The position numbers and the translations under genes were made by a program. A stretch of DNA of 40,320 bases from Clostridia bacterium (lineage in GTDB: Bacteria; Bacillota; Clostridia; Christensenellales; CAG-138). Below, piece after piece: positions 18,081-39,850 of the stretch (positions are counted from its first letter, which is position 1; each line of letters opens with the position of its first letter). Location of the stretch: the NCBI GenBank assembly GCA_017395105.1, contig JAFPWD010000003.1:1-40320 (forward strand), written 5' to 3'. The notes beneath the pieces were generated by a model, which searched no databases, was not told the DNA's origin, and saw nothing but the letters and a program-made list of their open reading frames with translations.

Positions 18081-18158
18081 GCACATTTCCTCTCTTTCCG
18101 TGCATATAATGCCGAGATACAGCGAGAATACCTCAGCGCAAGCTGCTTATTCAATTAT

Positions 18159-21435: not shown

Positions 21436-21498
21436 AAAAGCATGCTGCGAATGATAGCGGAAGGTTTTTTTGATCGTACTTCACAGAAAGGTAAAATT

Positions 21499-22425
21499 AT
21501 GAAAAAATCAAAACACATTTTTATGCTTCTGCTCGCCGCGCTGCTCTTATTGGCGGCGGCATGCAATAGCAGGCAGGGCGATACGGGGCTTGTGAAGCAG
21601 ACGGGCGAGCCGACAAGCGCGGAGCCGATAACCGATGCGCCGACAACTATGCCCGACCTTACCCGCGCTCCAACGCAGGAGCCGATGCAGGAGCCAACTC
21701 CGGAGACGACGGACGAGCTCGAAAAGGGGATGCCGAGCAGGGAGTGGCTTATTGATGATGCTTGGGAAATAGCAAAGAGGATCGGCGATATTCACGGAAT
21801 TGAGCTTAAAAAGGAGCTTGTTGAAGTGCGGAATACGTCCTCGTGCTCGGTATCATTCTATTCGGAGCGCAGAGATGACGGATCCGGGTGCGGCATCTAT
21901 TTGAGCTATGATAGAAATGCCGAAGGAGAATTCTGCGTATCGCTGAGTCAATCGACAAATCACTATCCCGAGGAGCCGGGTTGGTATAATGAAACCTATG
22001 ATTTCAAGCGTTGGCGCGAGGAGTTCAATAACAGAGAGATCGTTGTTACTGTCGATGACCTTGTAAACGCGGGCTGCACGGAAACCGAAGGCGAAGAATA
22101 CATGGAGGCGGTGGGTAGATGCTATGCCAAGAAGCTTGCGTTGCTGTTTTCCGAAAACGCGCCCGAGGGCTTCCCTGCACGCTGCCGCGATGCAAGGCTT
22201 GTGAAATGCAGCTATGATGCGGCATCGGGGGAACATTCGGTTTTACTCGCGGTTGTGCCGGAGGATATCTGCGTTTTCAATGCATACTATGACGACTTTT
22301 GCAGATTCTATGATGGATTGGACGATCCCGAGCTTTGGGGGTGGCTTGATTATGCCGGAACCGTAAAGCTTGAGCTTGTGAACGGAAGTTGGGTAGGCAG
22401 GGCGTGCCTTGATATGGGCGGCTGA
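21499..22425 (+). CDS. Putative lipoprotein of unknown function
   Basis: This 308-residue protein has a signal peptide (KKSKHIFMLLLAALLLLAA) with lipobox AAAC at about 19-22. A Thr/Pro/Glu-rich spacer (about 30-75, with TQEPMQEPTPE) follows, then an acidic domain of about 230 residues. That domain contains several Cys (including SSCSVSF and CCY-free single Cys) and many Tyr and Trp. I recognise no family. The ATG at 21499 was chosen because AAAGG lies before it and the signal peptide begins there; the upstream extension from 21442 is not signal-like. It is monocistronic, with its own promoter and terminator. Confidence 0.75.
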   Translation: MKKSKHIFMLLLAALLLLAAACNSRQGDTGLVKQTGEPTSAEPITDAPTTMPDLTRAPTQEPMQEPTPETTDELEKGMPSREWLIDDAWEIAKRIGDIHGIELKKELVEVRNTSSCSVSFYSERRDDGSGCGIYLSYDRNAEGEFCVSLSQSTNHYPEEPGWYNETYDFKRWREEFNNREIVVTVDDLVNAGCTETEGEEYMEAVGRCYAKKLALLFSENAPEGFPARCRDARLVKCSYDAASGEHSVLLAVVPEDICVFNAYYDDFCRFYDGLDDPELWGWLDYAGTVKLELVNGSWVGRACLDMGG

Positions 22426-23986: not shown

Positions 23987-24024
23987 GATAATAATGGGAA
24001 ATTCCCAAGAATAAGGAGAAGAAA

Positions 24025-25855: not shown

Positions 25856-25920
25856 GTGAAGAGTGAATGGTGAATAGTGAATAGTTGAGGTGGAAATTCC
25901 TGCGGAATTTCTTTTTTTTA
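25856..25920 (+). repeat. Dispersed 3'-end repeat, copy E
   Basis: It begins AGTGAAGAGTGAATGGTGAA, then TAGTGAATAG, TTGAGGTG and the hairpin GAAATTCC-TGC-GGAATTTC, and ends in eight Ts. It stands directly behind the pepF terminator and is the cleanest copy. Confidence 0.75.
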
Positions 25921-25955
25921 AGGCCGATACGGCATAGAAAACTCAAAACAAATCG

Positions 25956-25994: not shown

Positions 25995-26023
25995 TTGAAA
26001 CGATGACATTCTTCCTATATAAT
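25995..26023 (+). promoter_or_regulatory. Promoter TTGAAA-N17-TATAAT
   Basis: TTGAAA (25995-26000), a 17-base spacer and TATAAT (26018-26023) lie about 60 bases before the first dockerin gene. Confidence 0.65.
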
Positions 26024-26083: not shown

Positions 26084-28030
26084 ATGACCAAAAAGCTTCT
26101 CGGCATCCTCGTTGCTGCGGCGATGCTTTTGAGCATCGTTCCCGCGGTGCTTGCTCAAAGCGCTCCCGAAAGGGACGGGGCGGCTTCCGCGATCTGGGAC
26201 TTTGAGACCGATCCCTCCGCCGACGGCTGGACGTTCGTCGATGAGGACGGCGACGGCTACAACTGGACTTGGGCGGAGGACACCGCTGCGGGCGCTCCCA
26301 TAGCGGCAAGCGGAACGCATGCTCTCAGATCCTTCTCCTATTACAGCCAGGCAGGCGCACTCACGCCCGATAACTGGGCGATAACCCCCGAGGTTCAGCT
26401 TTCCGAGGACGGCGAAGCGGCGCTTAATTACAAGGTTGCAAGCTACAGCGGCGCTGTTGCGGAAAACTACCGCATCTACGTTTTTGCCGATGGCGCAGAG
26501 GAGCCCGCTGCGGTCACAGAGGAGCTTGCCTCGCCCGATTCAAACAGGGTGTTTGAAGAACGCACGGTCGATCTTTCGAGTTTTGCCGGTCAGTCCGTAA
26601 AGGTGGCGTTCCGTCACTACAACACCACCAACCATTTCAGAATCTTCATTGACGACGTTGAGATCATCGGCGGCGAGGCGCAGGAGCCCATCGAGACCGA
26701 GCCCCCCGCTCAGATCCCCATGATCGCGGGCTGGTATTTCGAGAGCGATCCCGAGCTTGACGGCTGGCAGTTCATCGATGCCAACGGCGACGGCTACAAC
26801 TGGTTCTGGAACGGCGAATCCTCCTATTACGCCTACGAGGGCTACGGCTCCATCCTCTCCGCTTCCTATCAGGGCGGCTCCGCGCTCACGCCCGACAACT
26901 GGGCGATCTCTCCCGCGGTGGAGCTTCCCAATGCAAACCTCTCCGCCACCTTCTACGCCAAGGCGAGCTCCTCCGGCTATGCGAACGAGCATTTCGCCGT
27001 TTACGTAGGCATGGCGGACGATATCTCCGAGATGAGCGAGGCGCTGCCCGAAACCGTGACCACCGGCAGCTACGTTCAGTACACCGTCGATCTTTCCGAC
27101 TATGCGAACGAGACCGTTTATATAGCTATCCGTCATTTCAACTGCTACGATCAGATGCGCCTTGTGGTGGACCAGTTCGAGGTTTGGGGCAGCGAGGGCG
27201 AGGAGCCCGTCGAGCCCACCGTGCCGCCCACCGAAGCTCCCGCTGAGCCCACCGAAGCTCCCGTTGAGCCCACCGAAGCTCCCGTAGACCCCACCGAAGC
27301 GCCCGCAGCCGATGAACCCATATTCGGCAGCTATTTCGAGGCGGAGAACGATCCTGTCGAGGAAGGCTGGCAGTTTGTGGATTCCGACGGCGACGGCAGG
27401 AACTGGCAGTGGAAGCCGAACACCTTCGGCGTTGCCTACGAGGGTAGCGGCATCATCGCTTCGTACTCCTACGTCTACCCCCCGGGAAACGTTAATCCCG
27501 ACAACTGGGCGATATCTCCCGCAATAGAGCTTCCCGCGGAGAATCTCTCCGTTACCTTCTATGCCAAGGGCTATCTTGCAGACTATTGCAGCGAGCATTT
27601 CGCGGTATACGCCGGCACGAGCAGCGATCTTTCCGATCTGACCGAGGTGCTTGCAGAAACCGTGACCACCGGCAGCTACGTTCAATACACCGCCGATCTT
27701 TCCGATTTTGCGAACGAGACCGTTTATATCGCCATTCGTCACTTCAACACCAACCCCGGTGAGGAAGCGATCTGCGTGGATCAGTTCGAGGTTTGGGGCA
27801 GCGAGGGCGAAACCCCCGTTGGACCCGAGATCATCGGCGACGTGAACGGTGACGGCGAAGTTACCGCCGCCGACGCGCTTCTCGCGCTCAGATACGTTAT
27901 GGCGCTTGAGGAGCTTGGCGAAGAGCAGCTCGCACAGGCGGACGTGGACGGTGACGGCGAAGTTACGATGATGGACTGCCTGCTTATCCAGCGTTATGCT
28001 ATGGGGATCATCGCAAGCTTCCCCGCGTAA
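26084..28030 (+). CDS. Secreted protein: three choice-of-anchor-J-like domains plus dockerin
   Basis: This 648-residue protein has a signal peptide at 1-24 (cleavage near LAQSA). Beta-sandwich domains of the choice-of-anchor J/cleaved adhesin type lie at about 29-205, 212-374 and 410-578. Each starts with FETDP..DGW-like then D.(N/D)GDGYNW, has LTPDNWAISP-like in the middle, and ends IAIRHFN...VDQFEVWG. A PTEAP repeat linker lies at about 375-409. A type I-like dockerin at about 582-648 has loops DVNGDGEVTAAD and DVDGDGEVTMMD. No catalytic domain is seen. It probably binds glycan or another surface ligand and docks through a cohesin outside the window. GGAGG precedes the ATG; it has its own promoter and terminator. 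Confidence 0.85.
   Translation: MTKKLLGILVAAAMLLSIVPAVLAQSAPERDGAASAIWDFETDPSADGWTFVDEDGDGYNWTWAEDTAAGAPIAASGTHALRSFSYYSQAGALTPDNWAITPEVQLSEDGEAALNYKVASYSGAVAENYRIYVFADGAEEPAAVTEELASPDSNRVFEERTVDLSSFAGQSVKVAFRHYNTTNHFRIFIDDVEIIGGEAQEPIETEPPAQIPMIAGWYFESDPELDGWQFIDANGDGYNWFWNGESSYYAYEGYGSILSASYQGGSALTPDNWAISPAVELPNANLSATFYAKASSSGYANEHFAVYVGMADDISEMSEALPETVTTGSYVQYTVDLSDYANETVYIAIRHFNCYDQMRLVVDQFEVWGSEGEEPVEPTVPPTEAPAEPTEAPVEPTEAPVDPTEAPAADEPIFGSYFEAENDPVEEGWQFVDSDGDGRNWQWKPNTFGVAYEGSGIIASYSYVYPPGNVNPDNWAISPAIELPAENLSVTFYAKGYLADYCSEHFAVYAGTSSDLSDLTEVLAETVTTGSYVQYTADLSDFANETVYIAIRHFNTNPGEEAICVDQFEVWGSEGETPVGPEIIGDVNGDGEVTAADALLALRYVMALEELGEEQLAQADVDGDGEVTMMDCLLIQRYAMGIIASFPA
27227..27306 (+). 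repeat. 21-bp tandem repeat (PTEAP linker)
   Basis: About 3.8 copies of a CCCACCGAAGCTCCCG-based 21-base unit encode the PTEAPxE linker between domains 2 and 3. The period is in frame, so copy number can vary without a frameshift. Confidence 0.85.
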
Positions 28031-28060
28031 AACCCGTGATCGATAATCAATATTTGCCGA

Positions 28061-28088
28061 CCGCCGACCTGCGAAAGCAGGTCGGCGG
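28061..28088 (+). terminator. Terminator hairpin after the first dockerin gene
   Basis: CCGCCGACCTGC-GAAA-GCAGGTCGGCGG is a 12-bp stem with a GAAA tetraloop. The identical 28 bases recur after the second dockerin gene at 31166. No T-run follows directly, but copy F of the repeat, with its T-run, starts 10 bases later. Confidence 0.65.
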
Positions 28089-28098
28089 GGATGTATTG

Positions 28099-28148
28099 GT
28101 GAATAGTGAATAGTTTAGGTGGAAATTCCCTTGGAATTTCTTTTTTTA
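28099..28148 (+). repeat. Dispersed 3'-end repeat, copy F
   Basis: GTGAATAGTGAATAG, TTTAGGTG, then the GAAATTCC-CTT-GGAATTTC hairpin and seven Ts. It probably provides the real termination point of the first dockerin gene. Confidence 0.75.
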
Positions 28149-28201
28149 TTTATGCTTTGTTTATGCCGCATACCGCTCGGGTCGGGGAAGAACAAACTTT
28201 T

Positions 28202-28252
28202 GGTAAATTCTCAAAGTAAATTGCACTGTTGCATTTACTTTGAGAATTTACC
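28202..28252. repeat. Perfect 20-bp inverted repeat with 11-base loop
   Basis: GGTAAATTCTCAAAGTAAAT (28202-28221) has its exact reverse complement at 28233-28252, separated by TGCACTGTTGC. It lies 47 bases before the -35 of the next promoter and lacks a T-run on the plus strand. It may be a regulatory site, a minimal mobile-element remnant or a blocking structure. Confidence 0.8.
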
Positions 28253-28298
28253 TTGAACGGAAAACTTTGACAATATTATGACTTTTTGAGAGGTGAGC

Positions 28299-28327
28299 TT
28301 GAACAATCCGGGGAGTTATGATATAAT
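28299..28327 (+). promoter_or_regulatory. Promoter TTGAAC-N17-TATAAT
   Basis: TTGAAC (28299-28304), a 17-base spacer and TATAAT (28322-28327) within the shared ATGATATAATATAA block lie about 55 bases before the second dockerin gene. Confidence 0.65.
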
Positions 28328-28381
28328 ATAACCGATGCACCAAAGCGTGTGTTAAATCAGTAATATATTGGAGGAAAAATC

Positions 28382-31141
28382 ATGACCAAGAAGCTTCTCA
28401 GTCTCCTTGTTGCGGCGCTGATGGTGATCTCGCTGATCCCTGCCGCAGCATTTGCGAGCAATAGCTACAGAGCTCCCGCTCCGGTCAAGGATGAGCAGGT
28501 TGCGCTCTGGAATTTCGACGAGACTGATCCTCTTGAGGACGGTTGGCAGTTTATCGACGCTGACGGCGACGGGCTGACCTGGGTGCGCAACAGCTACGTA
28601 TCCGGCAACAGCGGCTCCTATTCCATCGCTTCCGCCTCCTACGACGGCGGTGCGCGCACTCCGGATAACTGGGCGGTCACTCCCGTTATCGAGATCCCCG
28701 ATGAAGAAACGATAAACCTCAGGTATTTCGTGAGATCCTATTCCGGAATCTATCTCGAAACCTACAGGATCTACGTTGGCACGAGCGACAACATTGAGGA
28801 AATGACACCGGTCACCGACGATCTTCTGAGCGATAGTGACACCGAATGGCACGAGAAGACAGTTGATCTTTCCGATTATGCGGGTCAGAGCATATATGTT
28901 GCTTTCCGTCACTACAACTGCACCGATCAGTGGAGATTCTTCATTGACGACGTTGAGGTGTTCACCGGCGAGGCCGGCACTCCCGAGCCCACTCCGACGC
29001 CTCCGGCAACCGAGCCTCCGGTAAGCCCCGAGCCCTCCGGAAACATTATCGCCGGCTACTATTTCGAGACCGACGAGGATGTGAACGCCTGGACCTTCAT
29101 CGGCAGCACGGACACCAACTGGGTATCCTCGGCAAACAACCCCGGCGGCTATGACTACACCACCTACGCACACGAGGGCAGCATGTTCATCCTTTCCTAT
29201 TCCTTCGTGGACTACGTTGGAGCTTATCAGGCCGACAACTGGGCGATCTCTCCCGCAGTCACCCTGCCCGAGGGCAACCCCAGCGTCAGCTTCTATGCAA
29301 GCAACGCGAACGCCGACTATCCCGAGCCCTTCTCGGTATATATCGGCAGCACCGCCGACACGGCCGACATGACGCTGCTTCAGGGCGACATCACCTGTCC
29401 CAGCGGCTATGCCGATCCCTGGACACACTACGAGATCGACCTTTCCGATTACGCCGGTCAGACCATCTACCTTGCGTTCTACGATAATGCGTATGACTGC
29501 TACGAGATCTGGATCGACCAGGTTGAGTTCCTCGGCGAGAGCGGCGCTGAGCCCACTGCCGAGCCCGATCCCACTGCCGAGCCCGAGCCCACTCCCGAGC
29601 CCCCCGCGAACCTTATCAAGGGCTGCTACTTCGAGGAGCAGGCCGAGGTGGACGAGTGGACCCTCCTTGATGAGGACGGCGACGGCAACAACTGGTACTG
29701 GCTTGCATACGGCATCAACCAGAACACTGCAAACATGGCGTACGAGGGCGTGGGCAATCTCACCTCCGCTTCCTATTTGGGCGGTGCGCTGACCCCCGAC
29801 AACTGGGCGATCTCCCCCGAGGTAGCAATACCCGCTGCGGGCGGATCCGTGTCCATGTATCTCGGGCCGCAGGATGTCAGCTGGGCGGCAGAGCACGTTG
29901 CCATCTACGTCGGCACCGGCTCCGATGTGTCACAGTACCAGCTCCTGGACGAGTTTACCCTTGATTCCGCCGATTATACGGAAACTCTCAATTATAAGCT
30001 GTTTGAATACAGCCTTGACGACTATGCCGGCCAGACCGTAAGCGTTGCGATCCGTCACTTCAACTGCACCGATATGTTCCGTGTCAACCTCGATCAGGTG
30101 GAGTTCTTCGCCAATGAGGACGAACCCGTTGAGCCGCAGGTGATCGACCAAATCGACATCATCAACTTCACCGAGCCCGTTTGGGGCGAGGCTCCCGCAT
30201 ACGATGTTTCCGTGGCCCTTGGCGCGCCCTACTCCATCTCCTATACCGACTGGAACTGGGAGATGGGTCTTGACGGCGACATGATGGGGGACGGCGAGAT
30301 CTTCGATAATCCCGATTACGGCTACTTCATGTTCTTTGTTATCACTCCCGACGATGGCTACACCTTTGCGGAAAACACCGTTATCATGGTGAACGGCAAT
30401 CCCTCCCTCGTTGGCCCCAACTCCATCGAGGCGAACGAGATCGTGTTTGCAACCATAGACTTCTTCGTTGAAGAACCCGCTCCCGCGCCCACCCTTGACG
30501 AGGCGCTGAACGTAGAGGGCGGCGAGCTCCACTTCGAGAGTGAAGGCGCATATCCCTGGATCGTTGTTAATGATGAGGAGAGCGGCAGGCTCTACGCCAT
30601 GAGCGGCAACGTGGGCGTACACTCCAGCGATTCCATCCTCACCACCACCATCACCGCGAACGCGGGCGACGTTGTTTCCTTCGAATTCCAGGCTTGGGGC
30701 GAAGGCACCAGCACCTTCTGGGATTACTGCGAATTCGCGATCGACGGCGAGCGTGCAGGCTACTGGGGCGCTTACCAGAATGATTGGGAGCTCTTCGCCT
30801 CCGAGCCCCTCACCGCAGGCGAGCATACCCTCACCTGGACCTACCATAAGGACAGCAGCGTAAACCCCAACGGCGACTACTTCATGGTTGATAACGTTGA
30901 GATCACCGAGGGCGAGCTTCCCCCGAGCGGCATCCTCGGCGACGTGGATATGGACGGCCAAGTTACCACCGCCGATGCTCTGATGGCACTCAGGTACGTG
31001 ATGGGTCTGATCGAGCTCAATGAGGATCAGCTTGCGCAGGCCGATGTCACCGGTGACGGCGAAGTTACCGTGGCCGATCCCCTGCTTATTCTCCGCCATG
31101 CGATGGGACTGATCGAAACCTTCCCCGCAGAGGAAGAATAA
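28382..31141 (+). CDS. Secreted protein: three choice-of-anchor-J-like domains, Ig-like and beta-sandwich modules, dockerin
   Basis: This 919-residue protein has a signal peptide at 1-25 (cleavage near AFASN). Choice-of-anchor-J-like domains lie at about 39-200, 222-393 and 411-580, split by Pro/Thr/Glu linkers. An Ig-like module at about 590-699 (TEPVWGEAPAYDVSV... ITPDDGYTFAENTVIMVNG) resembles repeats common in Clostridial surface proteins. Another beta module at about 703-844 (LDEALN, GAYPWIV, YAMSGN, ending YFMVDNVEI) recurs twice in the next protein. The dockerin at about 850-919 has loops DVDMDGQVTTAD and DVTGDGEVTVAD. No enzyme motif is present. Domain 2 closely matches a domain of the next protein. 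GGAGG precedes the ATG. Confidence 0.85.
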   Translation: MTKKLLSLLVAALMVISLIPAAAFASNSYRAPAPVKDEQVALWNFDETDPLEDGWQFIDADGDGLTWVRNSYVSGNSGSYSIASASYDGGARTPDNWAVTPVIEIPDEETINLRYFVRSYSGIYLETYRIYVGTSDNIEEMTPVTDDLLSDSDTEWHEKTVDLSDYAGQSIYVAFRHYNCTDQWRFFIDDVEVFTGEAGTPEPTPTPPATEPPVSPEPSGNIIAGYYFETDEDVNAWTFIGSTDTNWVSSANNPGGYDYTTYAHEGSMFILSYSFVDYVGAYQADNWAISPAVTLPEGNPSVSFYASNANADYPEPFSVYIGSTADTADMTLLQGDITCPSGYADPWTHYEIDLSDYAGQTIYLAFYDNAYDCYEIWIDQVEFLGESGAEPTAEPDPTAEPEPTPEPPANLIKGCYFEEQAEVDEWTLLDEDGDGNNWYWLAYGINQNTANMAYEGVGNLTSASYLGGALTPDNWAISPEVAIPAAGGSVSMYLGPQDVSWAAEHVAIYVGTGSDVSQYQLLDEFTLDSADYTETLNYKLFEYSLDDYAGQTVSVAIRHFNCTDMFRVNLDQVEFFANEDEPVEPQVIDQIDIINFTEPVWGEAPAYDVSVALGAPYSISYTDWNWEMGLDGDMMGDGEIFDNPDYGYFMFFVITPDDGYTFAENTVIMVNGNPSLVGPNSIEANEIVFATIDFFVEEPAPAPTLDEALNVEGGELHFESEGAYPWIVVNDEESGRLYAMSGNVGVHSSDSILTTTITANAGDVVSFEFQAWGEGTSTFWDYCEFAIDGERAGYWGAYQNDWELFASEPLTAGEHTLTWTYHKDSSVNPNGDYFMVDNVEITEGELPPSGILGDVDMDGQVTTADALMALRYVMGLIELNEDQLAQADVTGDGEVTVADPLLILRHAMGLIETFPAEEE

Positions 31142-31165
31142 TGAATTAACTACGGTTTGATTTTC

Positions 31166-31201
31166 CCGCCGACCTGCGAAAGCAGGTCGGCGGCTTTTTT
31201 T
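31166..31201 (+). terminator. Terminator after the second dockerin gene
   Basis: The same 28-base hairpin as at 28061 (GAAA tetraloop, 12-bp stem) is here followed by CTTTTTTTT, so it is a good intrinsic terminator. Confidence 0.85.
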
Positions 31202-31202
31202 T

Positions 31203-31250
31203 GACGAATTGCGAATAGCGAATAGCTAATTGTGAACAATGAAGGATGAA
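31203..31250 (+). repeat. Degenerate dispersed 3'-end repeat, copy G
   Basis: AATTGCGAATAGCGAATAGC and following AATTGTGAACAATGAAGG resemble the GTGAATAG part of the family but lack a clear hairpin. It stands in sense orientation behind the terminator. Confidence 0.4.
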
Positions 31251-31328
31251 CGGCTGCTCAAAAAATGCCGTTATTTCTCGGTTTATCCAAAAAATGAAAT
31301 AATATATTGCGAAAACGGCAAATTTCGC

Positions 31329-31357
31329 TTGCAAGCATATATAAGTGATGATATAAT
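31329..31357 (+). promoter_or_regulatory. Promoter TTGCAA-N17-TATAAT
   Basis: TTGCAA (31329-31334), a 17-base spacer and TATAAT (31352-31357) lie in the ATGATATAATATAA block about 58 bases before the third dockerin gene. Confidence 0.65.
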
Positions 31358-31414
31358 ATAAACGGTACATATCGTTGATATATGCACATTAATTGTTTAC
31401 AGGAGGAAATCACT

Positions 31415-34400
31415 ATGAAAAAGCTTTTGAGTCTTATCGTTGTGGCGGTATTGGTTCTTTCCATACTGCCGATGGGCGCGATGGCGGAAGCGGCGCAGAA
31501 GGCGTTTTCCGAAGGCCGCACCCAAACGATAGAAAAGCCCACCGGGGGCATCAAGGCTCCCGAGGAGAACAAGACCCCTGAAAAGCCGAGCTATCGGGAG
31601 GAATCCACCCTCTATTCATTCGGCTTTGAGACCGATCCCGCTGAGGAAGGATGGACCTTCTTCGATCTGGACGGCAACGGAACGAACTGGGCGCAGAGCA
31701 CGACTAAAAAGCACAGCGGCGATTATTCGCTTATGTCCAGCTCCTATAAGCCCACTTCCCACAATGTGGACAACTGGGCGCTGACCCCCGCGATCGAGCT
31801 GCCCGCAACCGGTATGGCGGCGCTGAAGTTCTGGATCGCCCAGCAAAGCTCCTCATACCCCGAAACCTGGGCGCTCTATATCGGCGAAGTGGCCGATCCC
31901 GATCAGATGGCTGTGCTTCAGGCGGACACCACCGAGGGCGGCTCAACCTTTATACAGAAGGAATACGATATTTCCGAGTATCTCGGCAAAACGGTCTATA
32001 TCGCATTTGTAAACCATAACTGCAACGACAAGTATTATATCTATATCGACGACGTTGAGATAGTTGCCGATCCCGAGGGCGTTCCCGTCACCCCGACTCC
32101 CGCGCCCACCGAGGTTCCCGCGGGCTATCTCGATGATGCGCTGAACGCGGAGGACACCGAGCTTGAGCTTACTTTCGTAAGCGGCGGCACCTATCCTTGG
32201 ATCGTTATGACCGACGAGGCGGACAGGGTATACGCCATGAGCGGCAATAAGGGCGTTCACAACTCCACGTCTACGGTGACCGCGACCTTTACACTCGACA
32301 GCCCCCATCAGCTCTCCTTCGACTATATGGCATGGGGCGAAGGCGCGAGCTATGATAAGTGCATCTTCTCGCTCGACGGCACCGTGATCTTCACCAAGGG
32401 CGCGGAGAACCAGCCCTGGCAGAACTACGTGGTCGAAACGCCCCTTGAGGCAGGCGAGCACACGATCGGGTTCGCCTTCACCAAGGATGGCTCCGACAAC
32501 GGCACGGGCGACTACTTCAAGGTGGATAACGTAAAGCTTGCCGATGCTTCAAGCATCACCCCCACTCCCGCTCCCACCGAGGTTCCCGCAAATTATCTCG
32601 ACGACGCGATGAACGCCGCGGATACCGAGCTCACGATCCACTTCGAGAGCACCGGCACCTATCCCTGGATCGTGCTGACCGAGGGCGATCGCGTTTACGC
32701 ACAGAGCGGCAATAAGGGCGTTCACAGCACGAGCTCCACCGTGACCGCGACCTTCACCCTTGAGGGCTACTATCTGCTCTCCTTCGACTATATGGCATGG
32801 GGCGAAGGCTCGAGCACCTTATGGGATAAGTGCATCTTCAAGCTCGACGGCGCCGTGATCTTCACCAAGGGTGCGGAGGACCAGCCCTGGCAGAACTACG
32901 CGGTCGAAGAGCCACTCGAGCCCGGCGAGCACACGATCGAGTTCACCTTCACCAAGGACGGCTCCGCCAACGGCACGGGCGACTATTTCAATATCGACAA
33001 CGTCAAGCTCGAGCAGACCGCGGCGCCCGCTCCGACTCCCGAGCCCACTGCGGCTCCCGAATATTTCGTGGGCTACTACTTCGAGACCGATGCGGACGTT
33101 GAGGAATGGTGCCTGATCGATGCCGATGGCGATGGCTTCAACTGGACGAGAAGGGACTCCGAAGAGTACGCATACGAAGGCGTTGGCTGCCTGACCTCGG
33201 CATCCTATGACAACAACTCAGGCGCTGTGCTTTATCCCGATAACTGGGCTATCTCTCCCTCTCAGAAGGTAGTTGATGCGGAAGCCTACTTCAGCTTCTA
33301 TATAGCCGCGCAGGATCCCAGCTATCCCGCCGAGCATATCGGAATTTACATCGGCAGCGGAAATGAAGTTGAAAACTACGAGCTCATTGATGAGTTCACC
33401 CTCACCTCCGGCATTTACGAGCAGCATTCCTACAGCCTTGAGGAGTACGTTGGCGAGGAAGTCAGCCTTGCGATCCGTCACTTCAATTGCTACGATATGT
33501 TCATGGTCAACGTGGATATGTTCGTATTCGTCGGCACCGAGGAGGGCGAGCCCGTTCCCGAGCCCGATCCCACTCCCACTCCGGTACCTACCGAAACTCC
33601 CGAGCCCACCCCGGTTCCCGAAGACCTGATCGTGGGCTACTACTTCGAGAGCGAAGAAGAGCTCGAGGGCTGGAACTTCATCGGCACCGAAGATACAAAC
33701 TGGGTACATTCCTCCGTCAACCCCGGCAATTACGACTATGCTCAGTATGCGCATGAGGGCAGCGGCTTCATCCTCTCCTACTCCTTCGTGGACTACGTTG
33801 GTTCCTACCAGGCGGACAACTGGGCGATCACGCCTCCCTTTAAGGTTCCCGAAAACTCCGCAAGGGTGAGCTTCTATGCGAACAACGCAAATGCAACCTA
33901 CCCTGAGGCATTCGATCTTTATATCGGCACCTCCGATGATGTAGGCTCGATGACGCTGATTGAGGCAGATATTTCACCGAGCACCGGCAGCAACGATGCC
34001 TGGACTCTGTATGAGTTCGATCTCTCCGAATATGCCGGCGAAACGATCTACATTGCGTTCCACGATCATTGCTACGATATGTACGAGCTCTGGATCGATC
34101 AGGTTCAGTTCTGGGGCGAATACGGGGCTGAGATCATCGAGGAGGTCAACATTGAAGGCTTCATCGAGCCCGCGTGGGGCGAAGCACCCTTCTATGGCGT
34201 GACCGTTCCCGAGGGAGCGAACTACACCATCGAGCTGGTCGAATGGTACGACAACAACGCATTAGGCGCGATGGCTCCCACGGCCGTGTTCGACAATGAG
34301 GACACCACGTACAGCATCTACGTTCAGATCGTGCCGAACGAAGGCTATGAGTTCTCCGAATCGCTCGTAATGCTCATCAACGGCGAAACAACCTTCGTTG

Positions 34401-35029
34401 ATGCCGAATACTCCTCCGCAGAATTCGAAGGCGCCTATATCTGGTCGATCGAATTCACCGTTGAGCGCGAGCTTATCGATGCAATCGAGATAACCGAGCT
34501 CGATATCCCCGAGTGGGGCGCAAACCCCGATTTCGACGTGGTCGTTCCCGAGGGCGCACTCTACGGTATCAAGATGCTATTCTGGTGCACTTTCGATGAA
34601 GAGACAGATGACACCGTTGAACTCGGCGCAGGCTATGAGTTTAACGATCCCAACGAGGAATACTATGTGTTTATCGTGGTCGAGCCCGCGGAGGGATATA
34701 AGTTCGATGAAGAGAACGTTACCGCGCTTCTGAATGGCGGCGAGATGGAGATTTTGGAATATGCTGTTCAGGACGGTATGCTCATGATACTCGCAGGTCC
34801 GTTCACTGTTGAAGCGCCCATAGTTTGGGGCGATGCGAACGGCGACGGCGAGACCACCATCGAGGATGCGCTGCTGATCATGCGCTATCTGATCGGCATT
34901 GATGAGATCGCCGAAGAGAATCTTGAATGGTGCGACGTCAACGGCGATGGCAGCATCGACCTTACGGATGCGCTTCTCATCATGAGAAAGGTTATTGGTA
35001 CGATCGAGGCATTCCCCGTGGAAGAATGA
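31415..35029 (+). CDS. Large secreted protein: choice-of-anchor-J-like, beta-sandwich and Ig-like modules, dockerin
   Basis: This is the largest gene of the array (1204 residues). The signal peptide is at 1-24. A choice-of-anchor-J-like domain lies at about 61-222. Two tandem copies of a beta-sandwich module (about 237-380 and 394-532: YLDDA.NA, YPWIV, GNKGVHS/N, MAWGEG, AGEHTI, GTGDYF.VDNVKL) are each led by a TPAPTEVPA linker. Further choice-of-anchor-J-like domains lie at about 549-709 and 737-906. Two Ig-like repeats follow (about 908-1020, 1021-1133), then a dockerin (about 1137-1204, loops DANGDGETTIED and DVNGDGSIDLTD). The ATG at 31415 follows AGGAGG; the upstream extension lacks a signal peptide. 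Probably cell-surface, ligand-binding, non-catalytic. Confidence 0.85.
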   Translation: MKKLLSLIVVAVLVLSILPMGAMAEAAQKAFSEGRTQTIEKPTGGIKAPEENKTPEKPSYREESTLYSFGFETDPAEEGWTFFDLDGNGTNWAQSTTKKHSGDYSLMSSSYKPTSHNVDNWALTPAIELPATGMAALKFWIAQQSSSYPETWALYIGEVADPDQMAVLQADTTEGGSTFIQKEYDISEYLGKTVYIAFVNHNCNDKYYIYIDDVEIVADPEGVPVTPTPAPTEVPAGYLDDALNAEDTELELTFVSGGTYPWIVMTDEADRVYAMSGNKGVHNSTSTVTATFTLDSPHQLSFDYMAWGEGASYDKCIFSLDGTVIFTKGAENQPWQNYVVETPLEAGEHTIGFAFTKDGSDNGTGDYFKVDNVKLADASSITPTPAPTEVPANYLDDAMNAADTELTIHFESTGTYPWIVLTEGDRVYAQSGNKGVHSTSSTVTATFTLEGYYLLSFDYMAWGEGSSTLWDKCIFKLDGAVIFTKGAEDQPWQNYAVEEPLEPGEHTIEFTFTKDGSANGTGDYFNIDNVKLEQTAAPAPTPEPTAAPEYFVGYYFETDADVEEWCLIDADGDGFNWTRRDSEEYAYEGVGCLTSASYDNNSGAVLYPDNWAISPSQKVVDAEAYFSFYIAAQDPSYPAEHIGIYIGSGNEVENYELIDEFTLTSGIYEQHSYSLEEYVGEEVSLAIRHFNCYDMFMVNVDMFVFVGTEEGEPVPEPDPTPTPVPTETPEPTPVPEDLIVGYYFESEEELEGWNFIGTEDTNWVHSSVNPGNYDYAQYAHEGSGFILSYSFVDYVGSYQADNWAITPPFKVPENSARVSFYANNANATYPEAFDLYIGTSDDVGSMTLIEADISPSTGSNDAWTLYEFDLSEYAGETIYIAFHDHCYDMYELWIDQVQFWGEYGAEIIEEVNIEGFIEPAWGEAPFYGVTVPEGANYTIELVEWYDNNALGAMAPTAVFDNEDTTYSIYVQIVPNEGYEFSESLVMLINGETTFVDAEYSSAEFEGAYIWSIEFTVERELIDAIEITELDIPEWGANPDFDVVVPEGALYGIKMLFWCTFDEETDDTVELGAGYEFNDPNEEYYVFIVVEPAEGYKFDEENVTALLNGGEMEILEYAVQDGMLMILAGPFTVEAPIVWGDANGDGETTIEDALLIMRYLIGIDEIAEENLEWCDVNGDGSIDLTDALLIMRKVIGTIEAFPVEE
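32090..33010 (+). repeat. Tandem duplication of a beta-sandwich module (period about 471 bp)
   Basis: The linker plus module starting at 32131 recurs at 32602, with long near-identical stretches (for example around the CTATATGGCATGGGGCGAAG block at about 32325 and 32794). It is a direct in-frame domain duplication. Confidence 0.85.
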
Positions 35030-35080
35030 TACTCGACTTGCCTTGAAAAGGGCATGCGTGGATCATAAACCGATCTTCGA

Positions 35081-35111
35081 GCGCCGCCTGCAATTGCGGG
35101 CGGCGCATTTT
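35081..35111 (+). terminator. Probable terminator after the third dockerin gene
   Basis: GCGCCGCC and GGCGGCGC form a strong stem with TGCAATTGCG loop, followed by only a weak ATTTTA tail. Confidence 0.6.
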
Positions 35112-35347
35112 AAGAGGTGACCGGTCTCTTACCGATTTATAAAAAAGCATCGGGCGCGGCGTTTTGGGAGGAAGATACCTCGCTCGGGCATCGGCGGCGG
35201 AATTAAAGAACCTGCATTCGCGCCGCTTGCGGTGCGAACGGCGATGGAGGTGATAAAAAAGCCCGATCAATAACGGCAAATGGAAGAATCATTTGCCGCA
35301 AATATTGAAAAAACAGAAACAGCATACCCGATACACTGCATACGGTA

Positions 35348-35376
35348 TTGCAAAACGACACATAAGTTGGTATAAT
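35348..35376 (+). promoter_or_regulatory. Promoter TTGCAA-N17-TATAAT
   Basis: TTGCAA (35348-35353), a 17-base spacer and TATAAT (35371-35376) lie 43 bases before the fourth dockerin gene. Confidence 0.65.
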
Positions 35377-35419
35377 AATCTTGGCGCGAAAGCGTACAAG
35401 CAAGTAGGAGGAGAAACAC

Positions 35420-36778
35420 ATGAAGAAAACGATCTGCATTATTGCAGCGGCGGCAATGCTTCTTGCATCGCTTCCGGCTATTGCAAGCACGGGAAAGCTC
35501 CCCGTGGATACGACCTCTTTATGGGAAGATAACGAGGTTGTTCTTTGGGATTTCGAAGGCGAAAACGCTCTTGAAGGTTGGCAGTTTGTTGATGCCGATG
35601 GCGATGGCATCAACTGGGATGTGTCGCCCAACTATGCTTTGAGCGGCAGCAAATCGCTCAGCTCATATTCCTATCTTGACAACGTTTATTACACTCCGGA
35701 CAACTGGGCGATAACCCCCGCAGTGACCGTGCCCGAGGAGACCTGTGCTGCGCTCACCTTCTCCGGCAGGAACCATATGCCAACCGGCGTGGACGTTTTC
35801 CGCGTATATGCCGGCACAACTCCCGATATCTCCGAGATGAGCCCCATTGCGCCGAGCATGGCATTCTCCGGTCAGGAATTCGAGCAGAAGTTCATCGATA
35901 TCTCCGCTTTTGCGGGTCAAACCATTTATTTCGCATTTCGTCATTTCAATTCGTATGATATAGGCTTTATATTCTATATCGACGACGTTTCGATCATAAC
36001 GAATTTCGAGCCCTTGGCACCCCAGCCCGAAAATCTTCTTTACGGCTGCTACTTCAACGAATATGAGGATCTTGACGGCTGGCAGCAGGTCGATGCAAAC
36101 GGCGACGGCTTCGGCTGGTCGATCACGGTGAATCCCAGATACACTTTCGAGGGCGTTGGCGTTGTTGGCTCCGAATCCCTCGTCACCGGCCCCGGCGGCG
36201 GCCCCGTTGAGCCCGACAACTGGCTTATTTCGCCCGCTGTTTCGCTCCCATCGGACGAGCTTTTGCTCAGCTTCTATGCGGCGGGAATCGACACCATGTT
36301 TGATGCGTACTATCTTGAGCATTTCAGCGTATACGTTGGCACGAGTCCCGAGCTCGACGATATGGTGGAGATTATCGCCGAAACCGAGGTTTCCGATAAT
36401 TTCGAGTGCTACACCGCCGATCTTTCCGATTACGCCAATCAAACGGTCTATTTTGCGATCCGTCACCACAACTGCTATTACCAGAATTGGCTGCGCGTGG
36501 ACAGCTTCGAGGTTTGGGGCAGCGGCGAATTCCAGCCCGATCCCACTCCGCCGTCACGCATCTATGGCGACGTTAACCTGAACGGCGTGGTTGAGATCGA
36601 GGATTCGCTGAAGGTCATGCGCTGGCTCATCAGCATCGAGGAGCTGAACGAGGAGCAGCTCGACATGGCCGAGGTGCAGGGCAACGGCAGCATTGCCTTA
36701 GAGGACTCGCTGCTTATCATGCGCTATTCCATCGGAACCATCTCCACATTCCCCAGAGAAAACGCGATCGAGAGATGA
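35420..36778 (+). CDS. Secreted protein: two choice-of-anchor-J-like domains plus degenerate dockerin
   Basis: This 452-residue protein has a signal peptide at 1-22 (cleavage near AIAST). Two choice-of-anchor-J-like domains lie at about 41-198 and 206-371. Each carries the DADGDGINW- or DANGDGFGW-type loop, DNWAITP/DNWLISP in the middle and RHFN/RHHN near the end. The dockerin at about 381-447 departs from consensus. Loop 1 reads DVNLNGVVEIED, and loop 2 begins with Glu (EVQGNGSIALED) where the first calcium ligand Asp normally stands. A short tail NAIER follows. GGAGGAG precedes the ATG. It has its own promoter and terminator. Confidence 0.83.
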   Translation: MKKTICIIAAAAMLLASLPAIASTGKLPVDTTSLWEDNEVVLWDFEGENALEGWQFVDADGDGINWDVSPNYALSGSKSLSSYSYLDNVYYTPDNWAITPAVTVPEETCAALTFSGRNHMPTGVDVFRVYAGTTPDISEMSPIAPSMAFSGQEFEQKFIDISAFAGQTIYFAFRHFNSYDIGFIFYIDDVSIITNFEPLAPQPENLLYGCYFNEYEDLDGWQQVDANGDGFGWSITVNPRYTFEGVGVVGSESLVTGPGGGPVEPDNWLISPAVSLPSDELLLSFYAAGIDTMFDAYYLEHFSVYVGTSPELDDMVEIIAETEVSDNFECYTADLSDYANQTVYFAIRHHNCYYQNWLRVDSFEVWGSGEFQPDPTPPSRIYGDVNLNGVVEIEDSLKVMRWLISIEELNEEQLDMAEVQGNGSIALEDSLLIMRYSIGTISTFPRENAIER

Positions 36779-36810
36779 TCATGGCAAGGCAAAAGCCGCA
36801 TTGAGATGCA

Positions 36811-36836
36811 AGCCGCATCGAAATGCGGCTTTTTTG
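36811..36836 (+). terminator. Terminator after the fourth dockerin gene
   Basis: AGCCGCAT and ATGCGGCT pair, followed by TTTTTTG. A second copy of the left arm (AGCCGCAT, 36793-36800) lies just upstream and could compete. Confidence 0.8.
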
Positions 36837-36866
36837 TATTGTATCCGCAAAATGAAGGCAACACAC

Positions 36867-36895
36867 TTGTTTATATATTAATATTGTGTTATAAT
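36867..36895 (+). promoter_or_regulatory. Promoter TTGTTT-N17-TATAAT
   Basis: TTGTTT (36867-36872), a 17-base spacer and TATAAT (36890-36895) lie 54 bases before the fifth dockerin gene. Confidence 0.6.
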
Positions 36896-36949
36896 GTATA
36901 TAACGCAGGCGCATCGCGTTTGCGAAAAACCGTTTTAGGAGGAAACAAT

Positions 36950-38122
36950 ATGAAAAAGCTTATCGGCATCGTGACCGCGATCCTGATGCTCCTCTCCGTG
37001 CTGCCCGCAGGCGCACTTGCGGAGGGCGCCGCTCCCGCTGAGGAAAGCTCGGTTAGGGATGTGACCACCCTTGCAAGCTGGGATTTTGAGACCGACCCGA
37101 TCGGGGAAGGCTGGCAGTTTATCGACGGTGACGGAGACGGCCATAACTGGGAGCGGATAGACAATAATTACTACAGCAACAGCGGCGATTGCAGCATCGC
37201 ATCCGCTTCCTATGCGGACGGCGCGCTCAGCCCCGATAACTGGGCGGTTCTGCCGCAGATCGAGATACCCACGGAAGGTTACACCGCTCTTGTTTTTTAC
37301 GGAGCCATTCAGAGCGAGCTCTATACCGATATTTATCGCGTATACGTCGGCACGGGCGATGATCTTGAGTCCATGGAGCCAATTTCGGATGATATGGTTC
37401 TTCCCGGCACGGAGTATGCCGAGCAGGTGTTCGACCTTTCCGCCTATGCGGGTCAAACCGTTCGCATTGCGATCCGCCACTACAACTGCTCCAACGAGTG
37501 GAGAATCTATTTTGACGATTTCTCCGTTGTTTGCAGCGTTGACGACGATCCCTATGCGATCCATGAGGTTTCCGTGGACGGCTGGGGAACCCCGGTCGCG
37601 GGCGTTGCGGGCATCGACCACATGTTTTTGACCACCCCCGACGGTGCGCCGTACTACATTATCTACGGCGGCTGGCGCGATGAGACCGATCAGCAGCAGA
37701 TGTGGAGCGAGGAGCATGTGTTCATTCCCGGCCATATCTACACCGAGGGCTGCCAGATCTGGGCGGAAGAAGGCTACTACTTCGCCGAGGACTGCGTGTT
37801 CTACGGCGATGGCGGCACCGAGATCCTCGATATGCAGTGGTGCCGTGTGGATGAGAACGACAACTGGATCTGCTATATGAACAGCATCGAGATGGTCTGC
37901 GAAGCTGTGACCGATATTCCGGGCGACATTGACTTTGACAGCGATGTTGACACCGCTGATGCGATCATGGTTCTGCGCTATATCATGGGTATCATCGAGC
38001 TGAGCGATGCGCAGCTCGCCAATGCCGAGGTTGACGGCGACGGCAGCGTGAGCATTATCGATTCGCTGCTCGTTCTCAGAATGGCGCTGGGGCTTATCGA
38101 AGAATTCCCCGCGGTGAACTGA
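36950..38122 (+). CDS. Secreted protein: one choice-of-anchor-J-like domain, Ig-like module, dockerin
   Basis: This 390-residue protein has a signal peptide at 1-24 (cleavage near ALAEG). The choice-of-anchor-J-like domain is at about 42-199 (FETDPIGEGWQF, DGDGDGHNW, SPDNWAVLP, IAIRHYN). The Ig-like module at about 204-319 (VSVDGWGTPVAG, GCQIWAEEGYYFAEDCVFYG) is a divergent relative of the modules in the second and third proteins. The dockerin is at about 324-390: loop 1 DIDFDSDVDTAD has Ser for the usual Gly, and loop 2 EVDGDGSVSIID starts with Glu. The ATG at 36950 follows AGGAGG at proper distance; the longer frame from 36806 has no signal peptide. Confidence 0.83.
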   Translation: MKKLIGIVTAILMLLSVLPAGALAEGAAPAEESSVRDVTTLASWDFETDPIGEGWQFIDGDGDGHNWERIDNNYYSNSGDCSIASASYADGALSPDNWAVLPQIEIPTEGYTALVFYGAIQSELYTDIYRVYVGTGDDLESMEPISDDMVLPGTEYAEQVFDLSAYAGQTVRIAIRHYNCSNEWRIYFDDFSVVCSVDDDPYAIHEVSVDGWGTPVAGVAGIDHMFLTTPDGAPYYIIYGGWRDETDQQQMWSEEHVFIPGHIYTEGCQIWAEEGYYFAEDCVFYGDGGTEILDMQWCRVDENDNWICYMNSIEMVCEAVTDIPGDIDFDSDVDTADAIMVLRYIMGIIELSDAQLANAEVDGDGSVSIIDSLLVLRMALGLIEEFPAVN

Positions 38123-38161
38123 AGACAGATAGGCCGTAACAGGCTGTAAAAAAGCAAATGA

Positions 38162-38211
38162 AGAGGAACTGCCGCAGGCAAGCAAATTGCAGGCGGCAGC
38201 CCTCTTTTTTC
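38162..38211 (+). terminator. Terminator after the fifth dockerin gene
   Basis: AGAGG..CTGCCGC and GCGGCAG..CCTCT form a long stem ending in TTTTTT. The loop holds CAAGCAAATTGC, which also occurs in the loop of the terminator at 39974. Confidence 0.8.
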
Positions 38212-38239
38212 TTCCGAATATGGAATTGTTGCGGTCTTC

Positions 38240-38268
38240 TTGACCGTATCACACAGAGATGATATAAT
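38240..38268 (+). promoter_or_regulatory. Promoter TTGACC-N17-TATAAT
   Basis: TTGACC (38240-38245), a 17-base spacer and TATAAT (38263-38268) lie in the shared ATGATATAATATAA block 67 bases before the LRR gene. Confidence 0.65.
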
Positions 38269-38335
38269 ATAACATGTGTCGCCGCAAGGTATTTGTGCGC
38301 GAAGAATTACCAATACTCAACAGGAGGAAACGAAT

Positions 38336-39850
38336 ATGAAGAAAACCAAGACCGCGCTTGCGCTGTTGCTCGCGCTGCTGCTTGCGCTCGCAGCCGTTCC
38401 GGTTTCCGCGCTTCCCGCTTTTTCTGCGGATAGGGGCGCGATAGAGCCTTTTTGGATAGTGCCGGAGGGGTACAATGCGCACGACTACGATAAATGCGTA
38501 GTGTTTTTGGAGCAGACCGATGCAAGCGGCGTTAAAAACGGCAATAAGCTTAGCTCGAGCTACGATCCTAACAACCCCGAGAGCTGGGGCATCGACAGCT
38601 GGGGGGAGAGAACCTTCCAATGGGTCGGCGTGGACGGCGAGCTGCGACTGATGATCGCGCATCTTGCGTATAAGAATCTTGCGGGAGAGCTCGATCTTGC
38701 GGACTGCCCGATGCTCAGCCGCGTGGTTTTCTGGGATAATCGCATCACCGCGGTGGACGTTTCGGGCTGCGACAGGCTGACCGATCTTTATTGCAGCGGA
38801 AATCAGATCTCCGAGCTGGACGTTTCGGGCAATACCGAGCTTGAGATACTATCCTGCGGCAGCAACAGGCTGACGAGCGTGGACGTTTCGAACAACCCCG
38901 CGATATGGTATCTTTACTGCTACGACAACGATCTGACCGAGCTGGATGTTTCAAATAACCCCGCGCTGCTGCATCTGAGCTTCAGCGACAATTCAATCAC
39001 CGAGATCGATCTTGCAAACAACCCGAGGCTCGTGAGCCTTTACTGCACGGGAAACGGGCTTACGAGCCTTGATCTTAGGTACAATCCCAATCTTGAAACC
39101 ATCAACTGCGAGGAGAACGCGCTCACCGCGCTCGATCTTACCAACCATACCTCGCTCGCGATACTGACCTGCTGGGAAAACGAGCTTGCAGAGCTTACTC
39201 TCACGGGCTGCACCGCGCTCAATCAGCTCCATTGCGATACAAACAGGCTGACCGAGCTGGACGTAAGCACCTGCATCTCGCTTGAGAATATCGACTGCTC
39301 CGCAAACAGCCTCTCGGCGCTCGACTTAACGAACAACCCGAATCTTTTGGCGCTCGGCTGCATGGGCAACCCGATAAGGTCGCTCGATCTTTCAAACTGC
39401 CCCGGCCTTCCGCTCAACCATATAAGGGCGCAGGGCAGCGGCTATATCGGCTATTTCTCCAACCACAACTATTCCTCGGGCACGAACAGCCTCTACTTCT
39501 TCGCAACGCCCGAGCAGGGCGAGCAGTTCGAGGGCTTCTACGATCAAAACGATGCCTTTATCTCGAACGGAACATGGTACAGCCTGTATAACGCCTATTA
39601 CCATTACTATAACGAGGCGCCGAGCACGCTTACTTCCGTTACGGTGCGCTTCACGGGCAGCACTATCACCCCGGGCGATGCGGACGGCAACGGAACAGTA
39701 ACCGTTGCGGATGCTGTATTGGCGATGCGCTATGCAATGGGGCTGATAACTGCCATTCCCTGCTTTGAAAACGCCGATATCGACGGCAACGGCAGCATTA
39801 CCATCGCCGATGCGGTTGCGATACTGCGCCTTGCGATGGGGCTGGCGTGA
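38336..39850 (+). CDS. Secreted leucine-rich-repeat protein with dockerin
   Basis: This 504-residue protein has a signal peptide at 1-25 (cleavage near VSALP), then an N-terminal segment (about 26-100). About twelve LRR units of 21 residues lie at about 102-359, with pattern LxxLxCxxNxLTxLDVSNNPx and a recurring Cys in the LxC strand. A capping module at about 362-440 (GSGYIGYFSNHN, GEQFEGFYDQNDAF) is seen in other LRR-dockerin proteins. The dockerin is at about 444-504 with loops DADGNGTVTVAD and DIDGNGSITIAD. It lacks choice-of-anchor-J modules but shares signal, promoter type and dockerin with its neighbours. Probably a protein- or glycan-binding surface component. AGGAGG precedes the ATG at 38336. 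Confidence 0.87.
   Translation: MKKTKTALALLLALLLALAAVPVSALPAFSADRGAIEPFWIVPEGYNAHDYDKCVVFLEQTDASGVKNGNKLSSSYDPNNPESWGIDSWGERTFQWVGVDGELRLMIAHLAYKNLAGELDLADCPMLSRVVFWDNRITAVDVSGCDRLTDLYCSGNQISELDVSGNTELEILSCGSNRLTSVDVSNNPAIWYLYCYDNDLTELDVSNNPALLHLSFSDNSITEIDLANNPRLVSLYCTGNGLTSLDLRYNPNLETINCEENALTALDLTNHTSLAILTCWENELAELTLTGCTALNQLHCDTNRLTELDVSTCISLENIDCSANSLSALDLTNNPNLLALGCMGNPIRSLDLSNCPGLPLNHIRAQGSGYIGYFSNHNYSSGTNSLYFFATPEQGEQFEGFYDQNDAFISNGTWYSLYNAYYHYYNEAPSTLTSVTVRFTGSTITPGDADGNGTVTVADAVLAMRYAMGLITAIPCFENADIDGNGSITIADAVAILRLAMGLA

Follow-up and report, generated by a model that had tools for sequence, protein, structure and literature searches.

Six adjacent secreted dockerin proteins of a Clostridia bacterium as candidate adhesive subunits of a cell-surface cohesin-dockerin complex

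Results

A run of six dockerin genes

We analyzed a 40,320-bp stretch of DNA from a Clostridia bacterium (GTDB order Christensenellales, CAG-138; contig JAFPWD010000003.1 of assembly GCA_017395105.1), referred to below as the window, for a run of six dockerin genes whose products are candidate adhesive parts of a cohesin-dockerin complex. The window is an entire contig (C16). The metagenome-assembled genome to which it belongs comprises 58 contigs totalling 1.90 Mb and is 68% complete. Its named relatives are largely ruminant-derived (RUG13931, RGIG6112 from sheep omasum, RGIG6699 from sheep rumen, Tb.RUG.61 and Christensenella sp. UBA1214); they belong to the class Clostridia where this is recorded, and UBA1214 to the order Christensenellales. 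Six adjacent open reading frames (ORFs) on the + strand fill positions 26084-39850, and each encodes an N-terminal export signal, judged by eye and with no prediction program, and a C-terminal type I dockerin. The genes and their modules, including immunoglobulin (Ig)-like regions and leucine-rich repeats (LRRs), are as follows (lengths in amino acids, aa).

P0001, 26084-28030, + strand: 648 aa; signal peptide; three Cleaved_Adhesin modules (26201-26665, 26738-27181, 27341-27754); dockerin 27836-27997
P0002, 28382-31141, + strand: 919 aa; signal peptide; three Cleaved_Adhesin modules (28520-28960, 29063-29524, 29630-30103); PVWGE Ig-like region; beta-rich module 30503-30919; dockerin 30935-31090
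P0003, 31382-35029, + strand: 1215 aa; likely start at an internal ATG, 31415; Cleaved_Adhesin modules 31622-32062, 33083-33517 and 33650-34108; beta-rich modules 32099-32566 and 32573-33037; Ig-like region; dockerin 34829-34993
P0004, 35420-36778, + strand: 452 aa; signal peptide; two Cleaved_Adhesin modules (35552-35995, in two pieces, and 36074-36511); dockerin 36563-36727
P0005, 36806-38122, + strand: 438 aa as listed; likely start at an internal ATG, 36950; Cleaved_Adhesin module 37082-37528; Ig-like region; dockerin 37919-38080
P0006, 38276-39850, + strand: 524 aa as listed; likely start at an internal ATG, 38336; LRR array; dockerin 39671-39820

Five of the dockerins scored above the Pfam Dockerin_1 cut-off of 22.9 bits while that of P0004 fell slightly under it (19.9 and 22.1 bits in two scans), and two F-hand repeats were found in all six. 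P0001 to P0005 matched PF07675 (Cleaved_Adhesin) with E values from 1.3e-22 to 2.4e-65 and also NF038128 (choice_anch_J), both above the curated cut-offs; NF038128 marked four stretches in P0003 where PF07675 marked three. The sixth protein, P0006, matched LRR_4 (E 1.5e-19). The extra beta-rich module occurred once in P0002 and twice in P0003, and an Ig-like stretch was recognized by eye or by pattern in P0002, P0003 and P0005; a PDB search with that of P0005 gave nothing at E<=5. At E<=1, Pfam showed no catalytic domain in the six proteins apart from matches taken for chance, such as CE2_N in P0001 (E 0.25). These searches bore out a first-pass annotation, made from the sequence alone, which had described six adjacent same-strand secreted dockerin proteins with choice-of-anchor-J-like modules in five, LRRs in one, extra Ig-like or beta modules in three and no recognizable catalytic domain in any. 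We also considered the extra modules of P0003 as carbohydrate-binding modules (CBMs). This reading was set aside because a PDB profile search gave one partial match, to 6xi1 at E 8.6e-5, which covered profile positions 87-126 with none of its stretches passing individually, and then weak matches at E >=0.18.

With 49 dockerin genes placed randomly among 1,700 genes (an assumed gene number), a run of six is expected about 1e-6 times by chance. All six genes were under purifying selection relative to their relatives, with nonsynonymous-to-synonymous rate ratios (dN/dS) of 0.12-0.39. P0001, P0004, P0005 and P0006 had orthologues in a close relative (G312) with 88-98% identity and dN/dS of 0.12-0.28. 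The best full-length relatives of P0002 and P0003 among the regions fetched were in other genomes and were 85% and 78% identical over aligned codons, with dN/dS of 0.31 and 0.39, respectively.

Scaffoldins and a sortase in the same genome

The first-pass annotation had noted neither a cohesin nor a sortase in the window; this was correct for the contig, and both are encoded elsewhere in the genome. A cohesin search of the genome gave 14 matches in three secreted proteins: scaffoldin A (contig C43, 1860 aa) with 10 cohesins, scaffoldin B (contig C9, 1176 aa) with 3 cohesins and with Cleaved_Adhesin modules between cohesins 1 and 2, and a third protein (contig C10, 343 aa) with one. Scaffoldins A and B end in an xPxTG-type sorting signal, recognized by eye as P-x-TG, a hydrophobic stretch and FR(K/R)K, and the genome has one sortase match. 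The C10 protein ends in a hydrophobic stretch and a basic tail without an xPxTG-type motif; a sortase-type sorting signal was seen neither on it nor on the six clients. Of 11 cohesin proteins of relatives that were inspected, 10, from six genomes of three genera, had a closely similar C-terminus; in the exception (L167) letters near the end are masked and the signal is not visible. All five genus genomes within the cohesin search had cohesin matches. No CBM family was found in the three cohesin proteins at E<=0.01. The 14 cohesins and the two sortase-type C-termini support the earlier proposal that adhesin-like proteins without catalytic domains are assembled through cohesin-dockerin contacts.

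Searched against the PDB, the dockerin of P0003 and one cohesin of scaffoldin B both gave chains of the same two entries, 4uyq/4uyp, as their best matches. Assignment of dockerins to particular cohesins was attempted and abandoned, since the genome's own cohesins are 26-65% identical to one another and no pairing was readable. Several proteins of congeners (L168, L169, L182, L184, L221 and L225) combine cohesin and dockerin in one chain, some of them with a second dockerin, which suggests multi-tier scaffolds. None of the three cohesin proteins of the genome studied here was seen to have both.

Proteases and other proteins that carry dockerins

All 49 dockerin matches of the genome were scanned with Pfam; some entries are partial, with one 48-aa fragment and three ending at contig edges. 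Peptidase_S8 was found in five of the 49, with Asp, His and Ser motifs in all five. Five of the genome's six subtilases are thus dockerin-tagged; the remaining one carries different repeats at its C-terminus, with no dockerin recognizable by eye. Another dockerin protein, with an HEYQH motif, matched the metalloprotease lugdulysin (7bb8, E 2.7e-20). The remaining dockerin-borne domains included CHAP (1), LRRs (8, two of them weak), Cleaved_Adhesin (6), DUF2436 (1), Big_2 (several), and Cthe_2159, DUF285 and a carboxypeptidase-regulatory-like domain in one protein each. Pfam gave no telling domain on the other dockerin proteins (on contigs C1, C5, C7, C26 and C44, among others). Glycoside hydrolases (GHs) were found on none of the 49. 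The first-pass annotation had set the assembly against a degradative cellulosome; the claim that it is not degradative was unsupported because dockerins of the same genome also tag proteases, with five subtilases, the lugdulysin-like metalloprotease and the CHAP protein among their carriers.

To extend the comparison we drew on relatives' regions, which are a sample of the genomic matches listed, and on domain profiles built from the own genome and used on nine congeners. No GH occurred in the families listed (25 of 59 and 25 of 36) for 75 dockerin proteins of relatives. GH9 was absent from all 11 genus genomes, six of which are >=90% complete and <=5% contaminated.

Three further observations concern the dockerin proteins. 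AhpC/TSA-redoxin domains occur on seven of them (L048 on contig C36, L044, L053, L028 and L036), three in tandem on C36, and a pattern search found a CxxC motif in six of the seven. Dockerin proteins of congeners include at least 3 of 37 with a C-type lectin domain, at least 2 of 37 with CAP, at least 3 of 75 with CotH and at least 1 of 37 with a transglutaminase-like domain. Two near-alike dockerin proteins, L041 (C5) and L037 (C7), each end at a contig edge at the same residue, probably because a repeat interrupted the assembly at that point.

Cleaved_Adhesin modules and their gingipain relatives

Seven proteins account for all 19 PF07675 matches of the genome: six dockerin clients (P0001 to P0005 among them) and scaffoldin B. 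PF07675 was present in all 11 genus genomes, in 35 of 103 family genomes and in 12 of 297 genomes of a sample of the order, all 12 belonging to the same family. The own genome and the sampled regions of nine congeners contain 53 Cleaved_Adhesin proteins, of which 43 carry a dockerin, 7 carry cohesins and 3 end at a contig edge. In other genera of the family a dockerin or cohesins accompanied the module in 13 of 20 proteins. The seven unlinked proteins comprise three at contig edges, two pieces of a broken frame (G039) and two that are whole with neither domain (G039 L163:7740-9380 and G099 L165); because of these last two, the link between adhesin and docking is not universal beyond the genus. 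Cleaved_Adhesin reading frames appear to be broken at L163 (G039:C30) and L193 (G255:C17).

The Cleaved_Adhesin modules of scaffoldin B matched the gingipain adhesin structures 3m1h/4itc/3km5 with E values down to 1.8e-16, and P0003 matched the same chains. The client gene adjoining scaffoldin B on contig C9 encodes DUF2436, a domain not found on the six window proteins, and matched Protease PrtH (9isp) at 8.9e-31; DUF2436 and Cleaved_Adhesin clients are both encoded beside this mixed scaffoldin. Two proteins of relatives, L134 and L136, join S8, PA, dockerin and Cleaved_Adhesin in one chain. A third, L153, has S8, PA, DUF2436 and two Cleaved_Adhesin modules, its dockerin being seen by the own-genome-built profile only. 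We had also considered true gingipains. They were dropped since none of the 11 genus genomes gave a C25 peptidase match; across the family, 3 of 103 genomes did, one of these above the cut-off. As for the "glycan-capture" role in the first-pass annotation, the ligand could be a glycan, but the gingipain-type relatives of the modules point to proteins or glycoproteins.

Apparent module exchange and a largely separate dockerin subtype

In a tree of 138 Cleaved_Adhesin modules (121 labelled), scaffoldin and dockerin labels changed 17 times, against a mean of 20.3 in shuffles (range 16-22). Because the changes lie close to the shuffled mean, scaffoldins and clients seem to have exchanged adhesin modules. 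The dockerins gave a different picture: in a tree of 180, the labels adhesin-borne and other changed 18 times versus 47.6 in shuffles (range 42-53). Among C-terminal dockerins, an FP- or LP-containing tail was present in 36 of 50 adhesin dockerins versus 3 of 120 others; the dockerin of the LRR protein P0006 lacks the FP tail. This separation on the tree, together with the tail, suggests that adhesin dockerins are largely a separate subtype with a separate docking address for adhesins. Mean identities within the genome differ little between groups, being 0.49 among adhesin dockerins and 0.42 between these and subtilase dockerins. Shared descent of paralogues could also have produced the separation on the tree.

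Arrangement of the array and neighboring genes

The sites found around the six genes and the genes directly upstream are as follows.

25995-26023, + strand: promoter-like site, P0001
28299-28327, + strand: promoter-like site, P0002
31329-31357, + strand: promoter-like site, P0003
35348-35376, + strand: promoter-like site, P0004
36867-36895, + strand: TTGTTT-17-TATAAT before the likely P0005 start, missed by the promoter scan
38240-38268, + strand: promoter-like site, P0006
36810-36831, + strand: terminator-like hairpin between P0004 and P0005
28121-28141 and 31166-31193: other terminator-like hairpins
22616-25797, + strand: M20 peptidase and oligoendopeptidase F (pepF) genes, directly upstream of the array

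The scan gave 17 promoter-like sites in the region compared to 9.2 +/- 3.3 in shuffles, and five of the six genes had one just upstream. Terminator-like sites totalled 15, which is the chance level (14.6). Because a promoter-like site precedes each gene, the six look like single-gene transcription units; a single operon was dropped on the same ground.

M20 and pepF genes also lie upstream of dockerin-adhesin genes in G313, and pepF does so in the stretches covered for G255 and G312. The dockerin genes behind pepF vary between relatives. The conserved upstream border and the differing genes behind it indicate an array with a conserved edge and variable content. The stretch after pepF (25860-25925) resembles that after P0001 (28090-28150), reading gtgaatagtgaatagtt...ggtggaaattcc...ggaatttctttttt with a terminator-like hairpin at its end, and is possibly a small repeated element.

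Two other neighboring regions of the window were noted. At 21442-22425 (+ strand) lies a lipoprotein-like gene of 327 aa as listed, with a signal, a cysteine and then a P/T-rich stretch (by eye) and with no Pfam match at E<=0.001. The adjacent genes at 16950-18086 and 18297-19427 (both - strand) encode proteins of 378 and 376 aa, each containing an ArsR-type helix-turn-helix close to its C-terminus.

Discussion

A proposed surface complex for capture and cutting

We think that the products of the six genes are probably adhesive clients of a cohesin-dockerin assembly anchored to the wall, whose gingipain-type adhesins would capture protein or glycoprotein for co-docked proteases. The evidence, all at the level of sequence, consists of the export signals, the dockerins, the cohesin scaffoldins with sorting signals, the sortase, the adhesin modules on both sides of the contact and the docked proteases. 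The client dockerins would bind the cohesins of the cell's own scaffoldins, which sortase would attach to the wall. The Cleaved_Adhesin modules would then hold a protein or glycoprotein ligand, which could come from the diet, from saliva or mucus, or from other cells; proteases docked alongside would cut the captured ligand and the cell would import the peptides. Such a complex would be an analogue of the gingipain-adhesin complex, joined by cellulosome-type plugs and not by non-covalent association of the domains of a cleaved polyprotein.

More tentatively, and at somewhat less than even confidence, we propose that this is a genus-wide counterpart of the cellulosome in rumen Clostridia that targets protein. 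Scaffoldins and dockerin-tagged adhesins and subtilases would freely share gingipain-type adhesin modules, the adhesins would have a dockerin subtype of their own, and capture and cutting subunits would occupy set places on one wall-anchored scaffold.

Several observations weigh against the capture-and-cutting assembly, and we consider them together with the alternatives that they bear on. One is that cohesins did not track Cleaved_Adhesin in the family sample, being present in 10 of 12 genomes with the adhesin and in 9 of 11 without it; cohesin presence was therefore rejected as a correlate of the module. Another is that the best PDB relatives of the scaffoldin A cohesins, 6kg8/6kgc, differ from those of scaffoldin B. 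Since the adhesin dockerin subtype is distinct, adhesins and proteases may use different cohesins or scaffolds. This bears on the alternative that survives best, a pure attachment or surface layer in which the adhesins dock on their own cohesins, fastening the cell to feed, host or neighbors, and the proteases sit in a separate complex. The position of the adhesin-borne dockerins on the tree and their FP tail favor it, as does the lack of a recognized catalytic domain in the six proteins; genes that vary behind pepF are also what is expected of exposed adhesins. We nevertheless consider such a layer unlikely, as paralogy alone can explain the dockerin-tree signal, relatives have S8 in one chain with Cleaved_Adhesin and either a dockerin or DUF2436, and DUF2436 and Cleaved_Adhesin clients are encoded beside the mixed scaffoldin.

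The six proteins could alternatively be substrate-binding helpers of a glycan-degrading complex (a cellulosome, amylosome or mucinolysome). Its dockerin-tagged GHs could sit in the third of the genome that is absent from the assembly, and a carbohydrate-binding Cthe_2159 domain is present on one dockerin protein. GH5, counted regardless of dockerin, was found in 2 of 11 genus genomes, one of which (G309) is at 6% contamination, and GHs among the unlisted families of relatives' dockerin proteins remain conceivable. Glycan binding is also conceivable for the beta-rich modules of P0002, P0003 and scaffoldin A: those of P0003 show CBM6/CBM60 similarity under the cut-offs, and the one module of this beta-rich kind on scaffoldin A was recognized by pattern. 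Known cellulosomes also dock LRR, peptidase and unknown clients (PMC2930009; unless a main text is named, statements on cited papers here and below hold for excerpts of them). Set against this are the count of no GH among 49 dockerin matches, where about half of the Ruminococcus flavefaciens dockerins are on carbohydrate-active enzymes, the lack of a GH in the families listed for relatives, and the lack of both a CBM family on the cohesin proteins and GH9 in the genus. We therefore regard a glycan-degrading complex as improbable, and a strict cellulosome was dropped on the same three grounds: GHs on the dockerin proteins found, CBM families on scaffoldins and GH9 in the genus were all missing.

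Dockerin-like domains without cohesins are found in many genomes. That the six tails are calcium-binding EF-hands that resemble dockerins by chance and have no cohesin partners, for which the P0004 score and, in P0004 and P0005, a second loop opening with E in place of D could be cited, is very hard to reconcile with two F-hand repeats in all six, 14 cohesins spread over three secreted proteins that this genome encodes and cohesins in five of five genus genomes, and orphan dockerins were dropped because the genome encodes its own cohesins.

Significance

Cohesin-dockerin systems have mostly been described with glycan-degrading clients. If the capture-and-cutting assembly is real, numerous dockerin clients that include several proteases and gingipain-type adhesins with no recognizable GH would widen the purpose of this architecture, and the complex would be a concrete candidate machine for the capture and breakdown of protein in the rumen. 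It would also mean that "cleaved adhesin" modules, best known in a periodontal bacterium, are at work in a Gram-positive lineage unrelated to it via a different attachment device, so that their role could be tested outside a pathogen.

Comparison with known systems

The components are already known; their combination was not found in the open-licence literature searched. In that literature "dockerin" and "choice-of-anchor" did not co-occur, and "dockerin" with "cleaved adhesin" was found, as far as the excerpts go, in a protease survey only, with the domains on different subtilases. The nearest precedents in the excerpts are the Limousia mucinolysome and the putative complex of Candidatus Stygibacter, both with GHs. 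The mucinolysome is likewise a cohesin-dockerin complex of gut Clostridia with docked peptidases and a sortase-motif scaffoldin (PMC12997984). Its defining dockerin-tagged mucin-degrading GHs were however not found among the 49 dockerin proteins here, and the main text of that paper does not use the word "adhesin". Stygibacter (Cloacimonadota) has dockerins on S8 and gingipain-like C25 peptidases and a cohesin scaffoldin, but it also has GH18, GH57 and a CBM2/CBM3 scaffoldin and belongs to another phylum (PMC8542988). The Ruminococcus bromii amylosome is similar in being a cohesin-dockerin system for a substrate other than cellulose and different in its starch enzymes and starch-binding proteins. 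Within the Christensenellales, excerpts on single-cell genomes from cockroach gut report dockerins, with a cohesin in one (PMC10266427).

The R. flavefaciens cellulosome shares with the present system its rumen Clostridia host, many dockerins, LRR, peptidase and unknown clients and neighboring dockerin genes, and its group 4 dockerins have been proposed to help structure the cell surface (PMC2930009). It differs in that about half of its dockerins accompany carbohydrate-active enzymes, compared to 0 of 49 here, and the excerpts of that report do not mention Cleaved_Adhesin modules. Closest in its modules is the gingipain/HagA system of Porphyromonas gingivalis, where Cleaved_Adhesin and DUF2436 are variably combined, with or without a protease domain, beside surface proteases; the adhesin regions of RgpA, Kgp and HagA consist of these same two families and vary by domain rearrangement (PMC5266723). 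The genus studied here differs in having subtilases in place of C25 peptidases, and in cohesin-dockerin contacts with probable wall anchoring where gingipains have a polyprotein that is cleaved and carries a type IX sorting domain.

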